Virus record (IMG/VR): IMGVR_UViG_3300036770_004432
Coordinates: 1 to 42,521 of that record
From: a virus
Length of the DNA: 42,521 nt
Strand: one strand, 5' to 3'
Below the pieces are notes generated by a model. That model was not told the DNA's origin. It worked only from the letters and a program-made list of their open reading frames with translations, and ran no database searches. Both the position numbers and the translations under genes were made by a program. Below are positions 2,677 to 17,530 of this stretch, piece after piece; the stretch's first letter is position 1; the number at the start of each line of letters is the position of its first letter.

Positions 2677-5600
2677 TTAGCCGCCTCGGCCATAGCCAAC
2701 CGCACTCCAGTTGAAGTTACGGCTAACGGCAGTTCCAGCCGAGTTTTTGAAGGTGACGGTGAAGCCGGTGCCGCTGATGCTGGTGACCTCAAAGAAATCG
2801 CCGGTTGCCATGTTTTGGGCGGTGATGCCGATGCTGGGGAGGTAGGCGTTGACCCCGCCGAGGCTTGCTGTTCCAGTCCAGAAGGCGTTGGTGAAGGTGA
2901 TTGCCTTGGCGCCGGCACCGCTGCTGACTGCTCCATCGCTGTTTTCCGTGCGGCGTTGGAAGGTGGCGTCGTAGCCCAGTTCATCCACCAAGATGTTTTG
3001 ATCGATGGCACTGCTGCTGAGATCGGCGCGGAATTGAAAGCCGCGACCACGGAAGGCGCCGTTGACGAATTCTTGCCATGCGCCCCAAGTCGGGGTGCCG
3101 CTGGGGTTGTCGTTGGTGGAGCGCAGCATCAGCTTGGCGTTCACCTTGTCCGTAACGTCGCCGTCCCAGTCGGACCAGTCATCCACGGTGTTGGCTCGGG
3201 AGTCGATCAGGTCGGATGGGTAATAGCCACGAGTGACGAAATAGCGCCGGAGATCGACAGAGAAGGTGTTGCCAAGGTCCAGTGTGCTGGCGAATGTGTA
3301 AGTGCCAGAGCTAGCCACCGGTCCAAGTACATCGAGCGTTGGGATCAGGTCAAAATCAACAATCGAATCAATTAAGGTCGTGCCATCCAGCGTGAGCGCG
3401 TCAAACTCTTCGCTGTAGAAGGTGTCCGACTTGGTGCCTTGGAAGGATGGAACGTCTTGATCTTCGCGGCGGGTTTGGATTGTTAGCGGCGCGATGGTGT
3501 CGGGCAGGTCGATGATTACGCTGGCTTCGCTGGCTGATTGCCGCCCACCGTCATCTTCAAATTTCGCCAGCACCTCGCCTTCCACCAGCGGAATAATGGC
3601 CTCTGTTGAACTGCCGGATTTGGCGGGAATTAGGTCAACGCTGTTGCTCCATGTAGCCGTGCCATCGGTCAGGCTGCTGTGGCGGATGTGAATTTTGCCG
3701 CCAACTTTTACGTCAAGGTCAAGCGTTTCGGTCCAGCGAAGACGACCGGAGTTGTTATTGATTGCCTCAAAGGTCAGGTTTTGGACGTTGCCCGGCACTG
3801 CGGTTTTGCCGATCAGCGCGAACTGGGCGACGGCAATTTCACTGCCTTTGCTGAGATAGTTGAACGCCTGAACTTGAACGTAAAGCGTTCCGGAGCGTGT
3901 GTTTTTAATTTGCAGTGACGGTGAGGTTGTGTTGGCCTGCGTCCAGTTGTCGTTGTCGATTCTGTATTTGACGCGGAACTCGGTTACAAGTTGTTTGGGG
4001 CTGATCCAGCTCAGATCAAAGGCTGAAAATACGCTTTGGCCGTCTTGGTAAAGGTATTCCGTGCCAGTGATATTTCCCGGAGCGTTGGGTGCTGCCGAAA
4101 GATTACTGATGTCGCGGGTGGTTAGTTTGTTATCGCTTTCAATCGCGTCGTAAATCGTGCTGTTGTACTGCAGCGCAGTTACGCCGTAAATGCCATCTTC
4201 GCCTTCGGCAACATTCAGCACGCGATATTGCTGAGCTTCGATGTCGCTGGTTTGGATCAGCCAGATGGCGTTGGCGTTGGGTGCTTCGCTAAATGCGCTG
4301 CTGACGTTGATGGTGGTGCCAGAGATGCTGCTAATGGTTTTGGTTTCCACTAAGCCGGTTGGCATCAGAACCGAAATTGTTGGACTGTTTGACAGATTGA
4401 CGGTGAGGTTGGTGCTGCTGTCAACAGTGATGGCGGTTGTGGTGGCAGAACTGACGCGACCGCTGCGGCGTGATCCGGCTTTAAGCGGATCGGCAATGTC
4501 GATCACCATGCCGGGGCGCAAGATGATGCCGCTGTCAATAGAGACCGAGAAGGTGACGGTTTCGGTCAGGTTTTGTTCGCTCAGTAGCGCCCATTTACCA
4601 GCCCGATGCGCTTGACCTTGGCTGTAACAACCCAGCGCCTTTATATCCTTGTTAATGATGCCGTATTTGGCTACAGCTTCCGCATCTTCAACATATTCGT
4701 ATTCAACTTCGCCCAAGGTGTCGTAGGACTGCCAAGCAACAGTGGCGACCGTGTGACGTGCCTTTTGTGATGATCCGCTATACGCAAAAATGCCATCAAC
4801 AACGTTGCTTGGTCCAAGTAAGTATTGGGAATCGGTTGGTTTGTCCTGCTGCAGTACCAGTGAGCCGGCACCGTAATACGCGATGCCACGGAACAGGCTG
4901 GTCATCTCTTGGATGACGTTGTAAACCTCGTCGCGGCTGTTAATCAATAAGTTGCAAGCGAAACGAGGCTCCAGTCCGCCTTTGCCGTTATCAACTAACT
5001 CGTTGCAGTATTGACTAATCGAATAAAAGTCATAGCGGTCAAGGCTGCTGGCTGGAACGCTGGCGCCGTAACGGGTGTTGGTGAGCAAATCCCACAGACA
5101 CCAAGCTGGGTCGTTGCACCAAGTCGCAGCGCCAAAAGTTCCATCCCAAACGCCTGCGTAAGTGACCCGCCCAATGTGAGTTGTTGTGTCAACCGTGGCG
5201 TTGCTTGGCAACTGAATTTTGATGCCGCGAATCAGGTACTTACGTGGCGGGATGCTGTTGAAATCACGCGCATCAAAACGAAGGCCAACGAGTGCGCTGT
5301 TTGGGTAGCGCAGTTTTTCGTCAATAATTTCTGTGTAACTTTGCCAATAGGTTTCGTTTTGGCGCTTTGCGGAGGATTCGTCGCCACTTAAACGAATGAT
5401 GCGAACATCAACGGGAAACGCTCCATCGAAACCAACGTTGTAATCGCGCTGGTAAGAGTTGTTTGTTTTGCCGCTGATCGTGTCAGTCAGAACGTCTGTA
5501 TAACCGCCACCGTTGTATTGGATTTGAATTTTAAGTTCAACGCTATGGCCGACAATATCGCCGTCATCTTCAATAATTTGCAGGGCTGGAACTTGAACAG

Positions 5601-6444
5601 TTACACGAACGCGGTCAACATCGGTATCGGTGACGGTTCTGGTTATTGGTGTGTTGTAGAAGAGTTGGACGCCAACGCTCTTTTCTGATTCCGCGCCTCC
5701 TGTAAAACTTGCAATAGCGGCTTGGGATTGAGTGCCATTGCGGGTGGTGACTGTGTAGCCGCGAAAGTTATCGTTTCCAGCAGCGTCTACAACGGGCGTT
5801 CCATCCAGATAAATGCTGTTGGCGCCATTGTCTAAACCTTGAATTTCACCTTCGCTGATTAGATCCAGAACGTTTGCGTACTGAATTGATTGCAGCGAGT
5901 CGTCGGCTTCGGTTGGTGTACGGGACTGACCGCCACCACCACCTTTGCCACCACCGCCTCCGCCACCACCAGCACCAGCGATACCAAGACCGAGGCCGGC
6001 ATTGTGGACGCGAACACCGTTGGCGATGAAGGTGTGATGCCCTTCGACCGTCAGGTTGTAGACCGTGCCAGTGCAGAATTCGGTCTTGCCGACGATGGGG
6101 CGGAGGTGGCCGTTGGCATCAACGAGGCAATCGTCAGAACCGAGCGTGTCGATTTCGACGAAGGCATTGAACTGGTTTAGAACCCAGTGGTTAGGGGTTG
6201 CATCAAGATGCTGTCCGCCCCAGAGCGTGTAGCGGATGACGCGCTCGTTTTCGTGTTCGTGAACCTTGAGGATCTTAACTTCGTGGACTTCGCCGGTGTG
6301 ATCAAAGCTCAGGACCAGATCGCCAGCCTGCAGTTCATCAATCCGGCGTTGGCCGCCTGGAACGTTGACGAGCGTATGCCCTAGGAAGCAACCGCCACCA
6401 CCGCCGCCACCAGAACCTTGGATCATTTGGATATTGCGGGTCAT
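2677..6444 (-). CDS. J: Tail-tip host-specificity protein J with embedded intein-like domain
   Basis: The protein has 1255 residues, the size of lambda-type J proteins, which form the tail tip hub and contact the receptor. Residues 1-18 end in a polyglycine run. Residues 19-148 are a Hint (intein-like) domain, annotated separately, and a second glycine-rich run follows. The J core then begins with the typical NVLDLISEGEIQGL motif near residues 190-205. Fibronectin-type III-like modules follow (APNAPGNITGTEY and TAVPGNVQNLTFEAI), and a beta-rich C-terminal region. The start overlaps the stop of the I-like gene as TAATG. It is followed after 34 bases by the first tail fibre. Confidence 0.92.
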   Translation of the reverse strand: MTRNIQMIQGSGGGGGGGCFLGHTLVNVPGGQRRIDELQAGDLVLSFDHTGEVHEVKILKVHEHENERVIRYTLWGGQHLDATPNHWVLNQFNAFVEIDTLGSDDCLVDANGHLRPIVGKTEFCTGTVYNLTVEGHHTFIANGVRVHNAGLGLGIAGAGGGGGGGGKGGGGGQSRTPTEADDSLQSIQYANVLDLISEGEIQGLDNGANSIYLDGTPVVDAAGNDNFRGYTVTTRNGTQSQAAIASFTGGAESEKSVGVQLFYNTPITRTVTDTDVDRVRVTVQVPALQIIEDDGDIVGHSVELKIQIQYNGGGYTDVLTDTISGKTNNSYQRDYNVGFDGAFPVDVRIIRLSGDESSAKRQNETYWQSYTEIIDEKLRYPNSALVGLRFDARDFNSIPPRKYLIRGIKIQLPSNATVDTTTHIGRVTYAGVWDGTFGAATWCNDPAWCLWDLLTNTRYGASVPASSLDRYDFYSISQYCNELVDNGKGGLEPRFACNLLINSRDEVYNVIQEMTSLFRGIAYYGAGSLVLQQDKPTDSQYLLGPSNVVDGIFAYSGSSQKARHTVATVAWQSYDTLGEVEYEYVEDAEAVAKYGIINKDIKALGCYSQGQAHRAGKWALLSEQNLTETVTFSVSIDSGIILRPGMVIDIADPLKAGSRRSGRVSSATTTAITVDSSTNLTVNLSNSPTISVLMPTGLVETKTISSISGTTINVSSAFSEAPNANAIWLIQTSDIEAQQYRVLNVAEGEDGIYGVTALQYNSTIYDAIESDNKLTTRDISNLSAAPNAPGNITGTEYLYQDGQSVFSAFDLSWISPKQLVTEFRVKYRIDNDNWTQANTTSPSLQIKNTRSGTLYVQVQAFNYLSKGSEIAVAQFALIGKTAVPGNVQNLTFEAINNNSGRLRWTETLDLDVKVGGKIHIRHSSLTDGTATWSNSVDLIPAKSGSSTEAIIPLVEGEVLAKFEDDGGRQSASEASVIIDLPDTIAPLTIQTRREDQDVPSFQGTKSDTFYSEEFDALTLDGTTLIDSIVDFDLIPTLDVLGPVASSGTYTFASTLDLGNTFSVDLRRYFVTRGYYPSDLIDSRANTVDDWSDWDGDVTDKVNAKLMLRSTNDNPSGTPTWGAWQEFVNGAFRGRGFQFRADLSSSAIDQNILVDELGYDATFQRRTENSDGAVSSGAGAKAITFTNAFWTGTASLGGVNAYLPSIGITAQNMATGDFFEVTSISGTGFTVTFKNSAGTAVSRNFNWSAVGYGRGG
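6001..6390 (-). other. Hint / bacterial intein-like (BIL) domain inside J
   Basis: The 130 codons run from Cys19 (codon 6388-6390) to Asn148 (codon 6001-6003). The splicing motifs are visible: block A CFLGHTLV with the nucleophilic Cys1; block B LDATPNHWVL with the T-x-x-H pattern; and a C-terminal block VYNLTVEGHHTFIANGVRVHN-like stretch ending His-Asn. The residue after Asn is Ala, not Cys, Ser or Thr, which fits A-type BIL domains better than a classical intein. No homing endonuclease is inserted. Both sides are polyglycine, so the domain is joined to J by flexible linkers. It could splice, cleave or ligate. The family call is strong; the reaction outcome is unknown. Confidence 0.85.
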
Positions 6445-7151
6445 TAGCTCTTACGTGAACGGAAGAAAGCGGCGAAGAGTTCTTCTTGAACTTGTTGTTG
6501 ACTCTTGGTTGCACCGTTGCCGGTGCTTTCAACATCAAGACCGCTGGAAATCACAGCCGAACCAACAAAAACTCGACCGTAGGCAATGGGAACAGGTAAG
6601 CCTTGTTTGGCGGTATTGACGATTCCACTAAAACTGAATGATTCGAGCTTGGCGGCTTCACGTCCGCGCTCAAACGGGGAAGTTGATTGCACCGGAGCTG
6701 GTGAAAGCGATTGCGCGATACCTCCAAGAACAAGACTGGCGCCGATACCAACAACAGCGGTGCCAACCGTTCCGATGCCCATGAATCCTCCCAAGGCAAC
6801 ACCAGCAGACGCAATACCACCAGTGACGATTGCCAACGTTATTAGGCCAATGCCCGCAAAAATCTGAGCTGCGCCTTCGCCAGCGCCAACAATTACGGGC
6901 GTAATGCTAAATACTTCGCGCTCACTAAATGGAGCGGCAATCAACATTGCATTCTGTTCGGTAACTTTTTCTTTCCCGATTGTCACCCGATAGCCGACAC
7001 CTTCTTTCTCGCTATCAATTAACCACTTTTCTAAACCCGGAAAATTAACGCACAAGGCTTTCAAAACCTGCGCGGGCGTATCAGCTTCAAACTGAAAACG
7101 GCATTGACCCAGCTTTTTGCGGAGTGCGCCGTAGACCTTAACGACTTTCAT
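6444..7151 (-). CDS. I: Tail assembly protein, lambda gpI-like
   Basis: The protein has 235 residues. The N-terminal 80 residues have the ubiquitin-like pattern of tail assembly protein I (MKVVKVYGALRKKLG start, then IAAPFSEREVFSITPVIVGAG). A long Gly/Ala-rich hydrophobic stretch follows (residues about 90-145), and a C-terminal IVNTAKQGLPVPIAYGRVFVG segment typical of this family. In lambda, I acts with K, L and J in building the tail tip. The gene overlaps the K-like gene by 14 bases and the J gene by one (TAATG), which supports translational coupling. Confidence 0.85.
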   Translation of the reverse strand: MKVVKVYGALRKKLGQCRFQFEADTPAQVLKALCVNFPGLEKWLIDSEKEGVGYRVTIGKEKVTEQNAMLIAAPFSEREVFSITPVIVGAGEGAAQIFAGIGLITLAIVTGGIASAGVALGGFMGIGTVGTAVVGIGASLVLGGIAQSLSPAPVQSTSPFERGREAAKLESFSFSGIVNTAKQGLPVPIAYGRVFVGSAVISSGLDVESTGNGATKSQQQVQEELFAAFFRSRKS

Positions 7152-7851
7152 GCCGCAGGACTCGGGCGGTGCTTTTCAGATAATAGCCGCCATAGATGTC
7201 GCGGCTACTGAGGCGTCCTTGGAGGTGGTGCAGGATCAGTTGGTCGCCAAGGTAGACAGCGGCGTGGTTGGGCAGCGGTGATTGCAGTTGCATCAGGATC
7301 GCGTCGCCGTATTGCAGCTCCTCAAGCGGGATGGAGTAGAAGCCTTCGTTGGCGAAGTTGTCTAGGTATAAATTCTCACCCTTGAGCCAGAACTGATCGC
7401 GGCGGTCGTAGTCGCGCAGGTTGAGACCGAATTCGCGGTTGTACCAGTCGCGGCAGAGCGTGTAGCAGTCCACGATGCCAAACATGAACTCGCGCCCCAC
7501 GTAGGGCAGTTCAAAGCCTTCAGGCTCGCAATAACCCCATTGCTCGGTCTGCGGGTTGACGACGTGCCAAGGGAGGCCGGATTTTTCGCAGGCAACGCGG
7601 TCGGCTTGGGATGGGGCGTGGTTGGTCTTCGGGTGGCTATGCACAACGGCGACGATTTCGCCCTGCTCTTCCACGGCGGCGTAGTCAACAGGATCCAAGA
7701 CGAAATGCTCGTCTGGTGTCTCGGCCATGTTGCGGCACGGAAAATACCGTTTGCGACCCTTGACCACCGCCACCAGCCCGCAGGATTCCTTGGGAAACTC
7801 GGTTCTGGCGTGTTCCAGTGCAGCAGCCTGTACGGCTTCGGATAATTTCAT
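7138..7851 (-). CDS. K: Tail tip protease/hydrolase, lambda gpK-like (JAMM + NlpC/P60)
   Basis: The protein has 237 residues in two domains. Residues 1-110 are a JAB/MPN metalloprotease-like fold with Glu22, the HSHP motif (His71, His73), Ser81 and Asp84, a complete JAMM zinc set. Residues 115-237 are NlpC/P60-like, with Cys129 in GIVDCYTLC and His196 in PNHAAVYLG. The family acts in tail-tip assembly and in cutting host peptidoglycan during DNA entry. It sits between L-like and I-like genes as in lambda; the ATG overlaps the L stop (ATGA). Confidence 0.9.
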   Translation of the reverse strand: MKLSEAVQAAALEHARTEFPKESCGLVAVVKGRKRYFPCRNMAETPDEHFVLDPVDYAAVEEQGEIVAVVHSHPKTNHAPSQADRVACEKSGLPWHVVNPQTEQWGYCEPEGFELPYVGREFMFGIVDCYTLCRDWYNREFGLNLRDYDRRDQFWLKGENLYLDNFANEGFYSIPLEELQYGDAILMQLQSPLPNHAAVYLGDQLILHHLQGRLSSRDIYGGYYLKSTARVLRHESR

Positions 7852-8741
7852 TGCGTCAGACCAGCGCCGGGGAAAGATCCAAAGGGCAACTCGGCGGTTT
7901 CACCGAAACGTAATTTGCAGGAACTGAGGCGCTTGCCGCATTTATCGGCTGCCAAGGTGCCAACGCTGTTGTCATTGATGTCCCAGTAGTTGCTGCCGGT
8001 GTAGCCGCACTCGGTGCTGCGGTATTTCCACTGGCAGATGTTGGCAATGATCTGGCGCTTGGGAATCATCACGCCAGCGAGATCGAATTTGCTTGCCAGC
8101 TCAAAACTCACCGAGTCGCGGTTTTCGCTTGCCTTGCGGTCTACATACCAGATTTCATCGGGGAACTTGGCGTGTGGATCTGCGGCGGTCTCGCCGTCAA
8201 GGTATTTTTTCAGGGTGCGAATGCGCTTGACCGTGGCGCCACCGAGGTCGTTACCGGGTGTGGTGGCGTTGACCAGCAACAGCAGCGTGGTCATGGTGCC
8301 ATCCAGATTGCTGATGGTCAGCGTGGGGCGCGGCAGGGTGCCGGTGTTGCTGTATTCAAAGCCCTCGGCCTTGACGGGTAGGCGGGTGTAAGTATTGCCG
8401 TTCCAGACGATGTTGCCACTGATATTGGCATTGCAGCCATTGTGCCAGCGGTAGGTGTCGCTGCTGCCGTGCAGGGTTGTGTCCAGCGTCATCTCAAACA
8501 GTTCAATGATGGCGCTTGGTGCCAGTGCGGCCAGCTCCTCGTAGACGCTGCTAATCGCCGTCCAGACAACCGTGCCATCGGTGACGGTGCTGCCAATGTC
8601 GGTTGGCCACGTTGGTTGCGTGCTGGAGCTGGTGCCGGCCGTGGTGCATTGGAAGACAAGACCGGACGCCTGCAGGCTGCTGGCGCGGACAATATCGCCA
8701 ACGACATATGCGGTTGAACTAGCCCAGGCTGAATACGCCAT
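7848..8741 (-). CDS. L: Minor tail protein L-like, with an added N-terminal module
   Basis: The protein has 297 residues. From about residue 70 it matches minor tail protein L, and its C-terminal part holds four spaced cysteines (ICQWKYRSTEC and KCGKRLSSC), like those that bind an iron-sulphur cluster in lambda gpL. The first 65 residues (AWASSTAYVVGDIVRAS) resemble the small aromatic modules seen in carbohydrate-binding or fibre-associated proteins and are not part of usual gpL. The gene overlaps its neighbours on both sides by 1-4 bases. The L call is good; the role of the added module is inference. Confidence 0.85.
   Translation of the reverse strand: MAYSAWASSTAYVVGDIVRASSLQASGLVFQCTTAGTSSSTQPTWPTDIGSTVTDGTVVWTAISSVYEELAALAPSAIIELFEMTLDTTLHGSSDTYRWHNGCNANISGNIVWNGNTYTRLPVKAEGFEYSNTGTLPRPTLTISNLDGTMTTLLLLVNATTPGNDLGGATVKRIRTLKKYLDGETAADPHAKFPDEIWYVDRKASENRDSVSFELASKFDLAGVMIPKRQIIANICQWKYRSTECGYTGSNYWDINDNSVGTLAADKCGKRLSSCKLRFGETAELPFGSFPGAGLTQ

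Positions 8742-16504: not shown

Positions 16505-17530
<1,026 letters not shown>

Follow-up and report, generated by a model that had tools for sequence, protein, structure and literature searches.

The window analysed here, a stretch of 42,521 nucleotides of viral DNA (IMG/VR record IMGVR_UViG_3300036770_004432), carries on its minus strand gene J (2677–6444), which according to family matches encodes a lambda-type tail-tip (hub) protein of 1255 residues with an embedded Hint domain. PHROG 31 ('central tail fiber J') matched residues 165–981 with an E-value of 1e-236, the NCBIfam model lambda_TipJ covered residues 168–886, and the Pfam families FNIII-A_GpJ (E 9e-40) and Phage-tail_3 were also detected; beyond residue 165, as judged from these matches, the protein is an ordinary J. 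All the features of J described below lie on the same strand. The N-extein corresponds to residues 1–18 (MTRNIQMIQGSGGGGGGG; 6391–6444) and harbors the start motif [I/L]xG[A/S]GGG common to domain-free J proteins. The Hint domain, of 130 residues and without an endonuclease, occupies residues 19–148 (6001–6390), exactly the coordinates given in the first-pass annotation, and reads CFLGHTLV... DATPNHW... VYNLTVEGHHTFIANGVRVHN, followed by Ala149. The three signatures on which that annotation relied were borne out, namely Cys1 (Cys19 of J; 6388–6390), the predicted nucleophile of an N-S acyl shift, block B with T83-P-N-H86 (6187–6198), and block G with His147-Asn148 (6001–6006), the predicted site of Asn cyclisation and C-cleavage. 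Block F, VYNLTVEGHHTFIA (residues 128–141; 6022–6063), includes the Tyr-Asn pair found in the BIL structure 2lwy, with which it was aligned. The +1 residue, Ala149 (5998–6000), opens the C-extein start AGLGLGIAGA (5971–6000), which contains a second IxG[A/S] motif and is followed by a G8-K-G5 linker (5929–5970) that connects to the conserved J body (RTPTEADDSLQS...). The domain had been described as flanked by polyglycine on both sides, and this holds on the left, where seven glycines precede Cys19, whereas on the right the polyglycine only begins after AGLGLGIAGA and does not abut the domain directly.

Gene J belongs to a tail-tip module in the order M-L-K-I-J, as in the lambda-type tail tip, in which J, L and K were assigned by family matches and M and I by position only. 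Genes K (JAB and NlpC/P60) and L (Phage_tail_L), recognized by Pfam, span 7138–8741 on the minus strand, and gene I, at the position of the tail assembly or plug protein (6444–7151, minus strand), has a stop codon overlapping the J start (TAATG). The homology of the J body together with this gene order identifies the protein as a lambda-type tail-tip J. Just after J, a tail fibre gene with an S74 chaperone domain was found at 999–2642 on the minus strand. In lambda, J contributes its N-terminal half to the hub, together with L and the plug protein I (PMC10721106, PMC11101478), and receptor binding is a function of its C-terminal domain (PMC11101478). The N-terminus is also where single-chain hubs split into separate chains, and it is a focus of variable extensions (PMC13243795). 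Since the Hint domain sits at the N-terminal, hub end of J and the receptor end is the C-terminal one, it would be placed to affect hub assembly and not receptor choice, and its previously proposed use in maturing or varying the receptor-binding tip draws little from this position.

The assignment of the window domain to the Hint fold is far beyond chance. Taken alone, the domain reached or nearly reached the cut-offs for four Pfam Hint/intein models, including PT-HINT (30.8 bits, cut-off 27.7), Hint (29.7 bits, cut-off 29.7) and Intein_splicing (35.0 bits, just under the cut-off of 35.8), and it passed both the intein_Nterm and the intein_Cterm models of NCBIfam. The AlphaFold2 model of the isolated domain, computed from an alignment of 68 variants, had a pLDDT of 93.8 and a pTM of 0.85, and the top Foldseek matches to it were Tetrahymena BIL2 (6y75, 6tmm) and CthBIL4 (2lwy), with TM scores of 0.86–0.91 (0.91 for 2lwy, rmsd 1.6) and mini-inteins ranking just behind. 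A profile of the same 68 variants likewise found 2lwy as its best PDB match (E 3e-10), an intein being the next (5.5e-8). The presence of a BIL-type Hint domain inside the J reading frame, as initially proposed, is thus supported by the fold, the profile matches and the invariant residues.

By its chemistry the domain is predicted to be an A-type BIL, capable of auto-cleavage and low-level splicing, because it combines the Hint fold (blocks A, B, F and G) with Cys1, TxxH and a terminal His-Asn, and has neither a +1 nucleophile nor a homing endonuclease, with 130 residues in all close copies. CthBIL4 (2lwy) and BIL2 of Tetrahymena BUBL1 (6y75/6tmm) share with it the fold, Cys1, TxxH and HN, and the likeness extends to the YN of block F (2lwy), the absence of a +1 Cys/Ser/Thr (in the window family) and the lack of an endonuclease. 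However, known BILs reside in variable regions of hypervariable, non-conserved bacterial proteins, whereas the J-Hint lies in a conserved virion hub protein, in which only the glycine linker itself varies around it, and occupies a single site across hundreds of phages, its +1 Ala being invariant in close copies and its presence or absence polymorphic. It is this distribution, and not the chemistry, that leads us to file the domain as a variant and not as a plain member of the A-type BILs. Class 1 mini-inteins (gp41-1, Mtu RecA, DnaB) are also similar in fold, length, blocks A, B, F and G, occupation of one gene site and allele exchange, but the J-Hint differs from them in lacking a +1 nucleophile and a homing endonuclease and in residing in a glycine linker instead of a conserved enzyme active site. 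Inteins in phage terminase, helicase, portal, methyltransferase and thymidylate synthase genes are likewise Hint elements in phage genes; the full-length phage intein matches listed were about 25–36% identical to the J-Hint, and none was in J.

Other classes were considered and rejected: a class 1 intein by the +1 residue, which is Ala149 and not Cys, Ser or Thr; a class 2 intein by the invariant Cys, not Ala, at position 1; a class 3 intein on residues and context; a B-type BIL by the presence and invariance of block G with its HN; and a Hedgehog Hog-Hint, which is C-terminal, has a sterol-recognition region and lacks HN, by the HN and by the J body that follows the domain. The PT-HINT domain of polymorphic toxins (PF07591) belongs to the same Hint superfamily, and its cut-off was passed, but here a J body follows, with no toxin domain.

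Searches of IMG/VR with the Hint domain gave 460–501 related stretches; because each search lists the best 80 out of several hundred matches, the frequencies reported here do not estimate those in nature. Full-length copies were recovered among the collected loci by tblastn with the Hint core without its two ends, so that 313 copies were obtained, 123 of them distinct, the latter being the better count because some contigs were counted twice. Cys1, the terminal HN and the +1 Ala were each present in 313/313, no gap or stop was found in any copy, and block B was TPNH in 300/313 and TANH in 13/313. The codons of the catalytic residues vary synonymously among copies, and the invariance is therefore maintained at the protein level, which excludes the loss of these residues at neutral rates among relatives that had been named as evidence against the BIL reading. 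The median pN/pS was 0.12 in the domain versus 0.22 in the J body, 59 columns were invariant in the 68 Hint sequences (V110, Y111, N112, L113, T114, V115, H118, H119, T120, F121, I122 and A123 among them), with strong conservation of non-catalytic residues, and the -1 residue was always Gly in the close family. Altogether, the predicted activity of the domain looks to have been kept under selection. The +1 position, earlier held to be a non-nucleophile, is indeed Ala throughout the close relatives, and across 154 distinct wider alleles it is Ala in 134, Gly in 19 and Thr in only one (L513), the last being the exception to the rule; a further Hint domain, in L515, has a +1 Lys. The IxG[A/S] motif occurs in both exteins of 152/154 of these alleles, and co-variation of the N- and C-extein motifs was suggestive by eye but not upheld by counts. 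One locus (L213, 4968–5010) has a one-base frame shift in the polyglycine of the leader, which separates the J start from the domain. This may be a genuine slip or an artefact of sequencing or assembly; the IMG/VR contigs are assembled sequences, and DNA encoding polyglycine is prone to errors.

The J proteins of Burkholderia, Acinetobacter, Halomonas and Xanthomonas phages, of marine relatives and of close relatives of the window include domain-free forms starting with M..[IL]xG[AS]xGGG..(K)GGG..RTPxEA.DSL.S. As these proteins have the conserved start motif whole, the Hint domain can be recognized as splitting it, separating M..IxG(A/S)GGG from (K)GGGG..RTPxEA. When only the J body was used as a query, 77 loci with the domain and 64 without it were found among the matches listed, and in two pairs the first 300 residues of the conserved J body were identical, with the domain present in one member and absent from the other. 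In one pair differing in the domain (L066/L392), the body DNA was 98.7% identical and the mismatches were concentrated in the roughly 200 bp that precede J, as would be expected of a recombination tract. A J-body tree of 158 rows required 23 changes of the Hint label by parsimony, at least 9 of which were forced by well-supported branches (by a quick method), so that the domain would have been gained or lost at least 9 times. Moreover, in about 80% of distant pairs the synonymous divergence of the domain was below that of gene I or the J body, with extreme cases such as L166/L203 (0.19 in the domain and 0.64–0.74 around it). Cassette exchange by homologous recombination would be the simplest reading, although codon constraint could in part account for the low divergence. 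Because near-identical phages lack it, the domain looks like a mobile, self-removing insert, and the polymorphism, the split start motif and the signs of recombination point to such a cassette rather than to a dedicated maturation device.

According to the sequences collected, J-Hint domains are carried by hundreds of uncultivated aquatic phages in a glycine run near the J start. Distant J proteins (L503, L513, L522, L531, L534, L558, L500, L596 and others) also have a Hint domain in this linker, followed by Gly, Thr or Ala at +1, and all five records found to have the domain carry one copy per genome. In L500 (2793–3233, plus strand) and L596 (2810–3238, plus strand), a clearly different and longer Hint domain of 143–147 residues occupies the same polyglycine, which suggests that this linker was invaded independently. 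Polyglycine Hint domains of the same kind also occur in an I-like tail assembly protein, in L486 (9379–9768, minus strand) and L497 (4577–4966, minus strand), for both of which PHROG 32 matches were obtained, and in L510 (238–627, plus strand) and L550 (4638–5027, plus strand). These have a +1 Gly in the context GGGGGG|Hint|GGGGKGGGG, and the gene next to the one in L550 encodes a homologue of J whose N-terminal extension is very long. The Hint domains of L488, L537 and L546 lie in glycine-rich stretches of large virion-like proteins. In these three loci and in L504, the domain was observed between basic, glycine/lysine-rich runs of large proteins, exceeding 2700 residues in two, and is followed by KRGGGR..DPLAQSF; these are possibly structural proteins of cyanomyovirus-like phages.

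We consider it somewhat probable that the domain is a self-removing mobile cassette, that is, an A-type BIL (a mini-intein without a +1 nucleophile or an endonuclease) placed in frame in the N-terminal polyglycine of J, with at least partial ligation of its flanks. A route without a +1 nucleophile has been described for A-type BILs, in which a Cys1 thioester is formed, the C-terminal Asn cyclises and the freed amine attacks the thioester (PMC4031507). In J, the acyl group of Gly18 would be taken by Cys19 as a thioester, Asn148 would cyclise, freeing the amine of Ala149, and the attack of this amine on the thioester would join the flanks (..GSGGGGGGG-AGLGLGIAGAGGGGGGGGKGGGG..) and release the 130-residue domain. 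In tested A-type BILs, cleavage products dominate over splicing (PMC4031507), and for this reason ligation may be the minor outcome, with some J molecules expected to be cut but unjoined. The processed protein would then work like the J of cassette-free phages, and the distinct forms should be recognizable by their predicted tryptic peptides, NIQMIQGSGGGGGGGAGLGLGIAGAGGGGGGGGK for joined, AGLGLGIAGAGGGGGGGGK for C-cleaved and NIQMIQGSGGGGGGGCFLGHTLVNVPGGQR for uncut J. Lacking a homing enzyme, the cassette would depend for both its spread and its loss on homologous recombination between co-infecting phages, by way of the conserved gene I and J flanks. Its activity would have to be preserved, because tail assembly would presumably suffer from a hub in which the domain is still uncut. 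We infer here that the domain is catalytic, that its flanks are ligated and not only cleaved, that the uncut form is harmful and that the phage gains no benefit. Nevertheless, a purely selfish element would not account for the strict AGL that follows HN.

A maturation by cleavage only, in which cuts at Asn148 (and Cys19) would discard the 18-residue leader and the domain as an autoproteolytic activation step of the hub, leaving a J that begins AGLGLGIAGAGGG with no ligation, is a serious although doubtful alternative. It agrees with the prevalence of cleavage among A-type BILs (PMC4031507), and in the window family the C-extein re-creates the start motif right after the domain, so that C-cleaved J (AGLGLGIAGAGGG..) would also have a near-normal start resembling that of cassette-free J, which counts against ligation. 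However, Cys1 and block B on the N-side are no less invariant than the C-side residues, even if Cys1 could be kept for folding and not for chemistry, and the N-extein retains in nearly all alleles the IxG[A/S]GGG start motif of cassette-free J, which would be needless in a discarded leader. In L534 and L500, cleavage would leave J without the motif, whereas ligation would bring I-S-G-A-GGGG and GGGGGK directly together and so restore it. The conservation of both ends, the leader motif and these two loci together make ligation, or failing that complete removal of the domain, more likely than C-cleavage alone.

Conditional splicing is known for some inteins (PMC8987985), and in a regulated switch of benefit to the phage, processing would wait for the joining of J with I, L and the tape-measure protein, or for a redox or receptor change, and would time hub assembly or tail opening. 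Such a switch would accommodate the strong conservation outside the catalytic residues (59 columns invariant across 68 sequences) and the polyglycine Hint domains found in J as well as in its I-like hub partner. We regard it as unlikely, since near-identical phages without the domain indicate that it is dispensable, and no partner gene or trigger was found. The first-pass annotation had also suggested ligation to another virion or host-surface molecule, in which case the Gly18 thioester would go to an amine on a second virion protein or on the host surface. Such chemistry is possible for Hint domains generally, as in Hedgehog, where transfer is to cholesterol (PMC5874633), and Gly is the constant -1 residue of the close family, but only the 18-residue leader would be transferred, Hint-free relatives exist and no acceptor is evident from the sequence, making this very improbable. 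An inactive relic or structural spacer seems more improbable still: a flexible linker could tolerate an insertion, but none of the 313 copies has a decayed active site, the close family shows no change of length, and the frame-shifted leader of L213 is a single case.

BIL domains have been described in hypervariable, non-conserved bacterial proteins, and because of this scattered occurrence the natural role of the A-type is poorly known. The J-Hint is found at a fixed site in hundreds of phages, in a carrier whose relatives have solved structures and genetics, and near-isogenic alleles without it exist in nature, which makes both the role of BILs and the natural use of splicing without a +1 nucleophile directly testable. 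If the domain is active, the mature tail-hub protein of many environmental phages would differ from its gene, with consequences for annotation, for structure prediction and for cryo-EM work on tail tips. More speculatively, and in our opinion rather unlikely, the polyglycine linkers of J, I and other virion proteins might be the recurrent home of a dedicated BIL class with splicing tied to the assembly of the hub or the opening of the tail, a virion-based conditional switch gained and lost by phages as a cassette.

No cultured phage with a Hint domain in J was found among 50,697 INPHARED phage records, nor was a report of a BIL or intein in tail-tip J found in the open-licence literature. The genome collection searched for a bacterial source gave one match, a viral-looking contig with a tail module in a cyanobacterial MAG (L082; VGQX01000158.1), whose J-Hint is 74% identical to that of the window; no J-Hint was detected in 200 further genomes of the cyanobacterial family of this MAG. 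The portal protein of the window has its nearest counterparts in cyanophages S-2L and KBS-S-2A, and part of it shares 82% identity with that of a marine virus from a single cell. Together with the MAG-binned contig, this suggests picocyanobacteria as hosts. Adjoining the portal gene, a collagen-like fibre protein is encoded at 16505–17530 on the minus strand. Finally, a J with a +1 Gly Hint domain was observed in a 99-kb viral contig (L608, UViG 2820089333), which may be a prophage of an isolate, its identifier falling outside the metagenome naming pattern.
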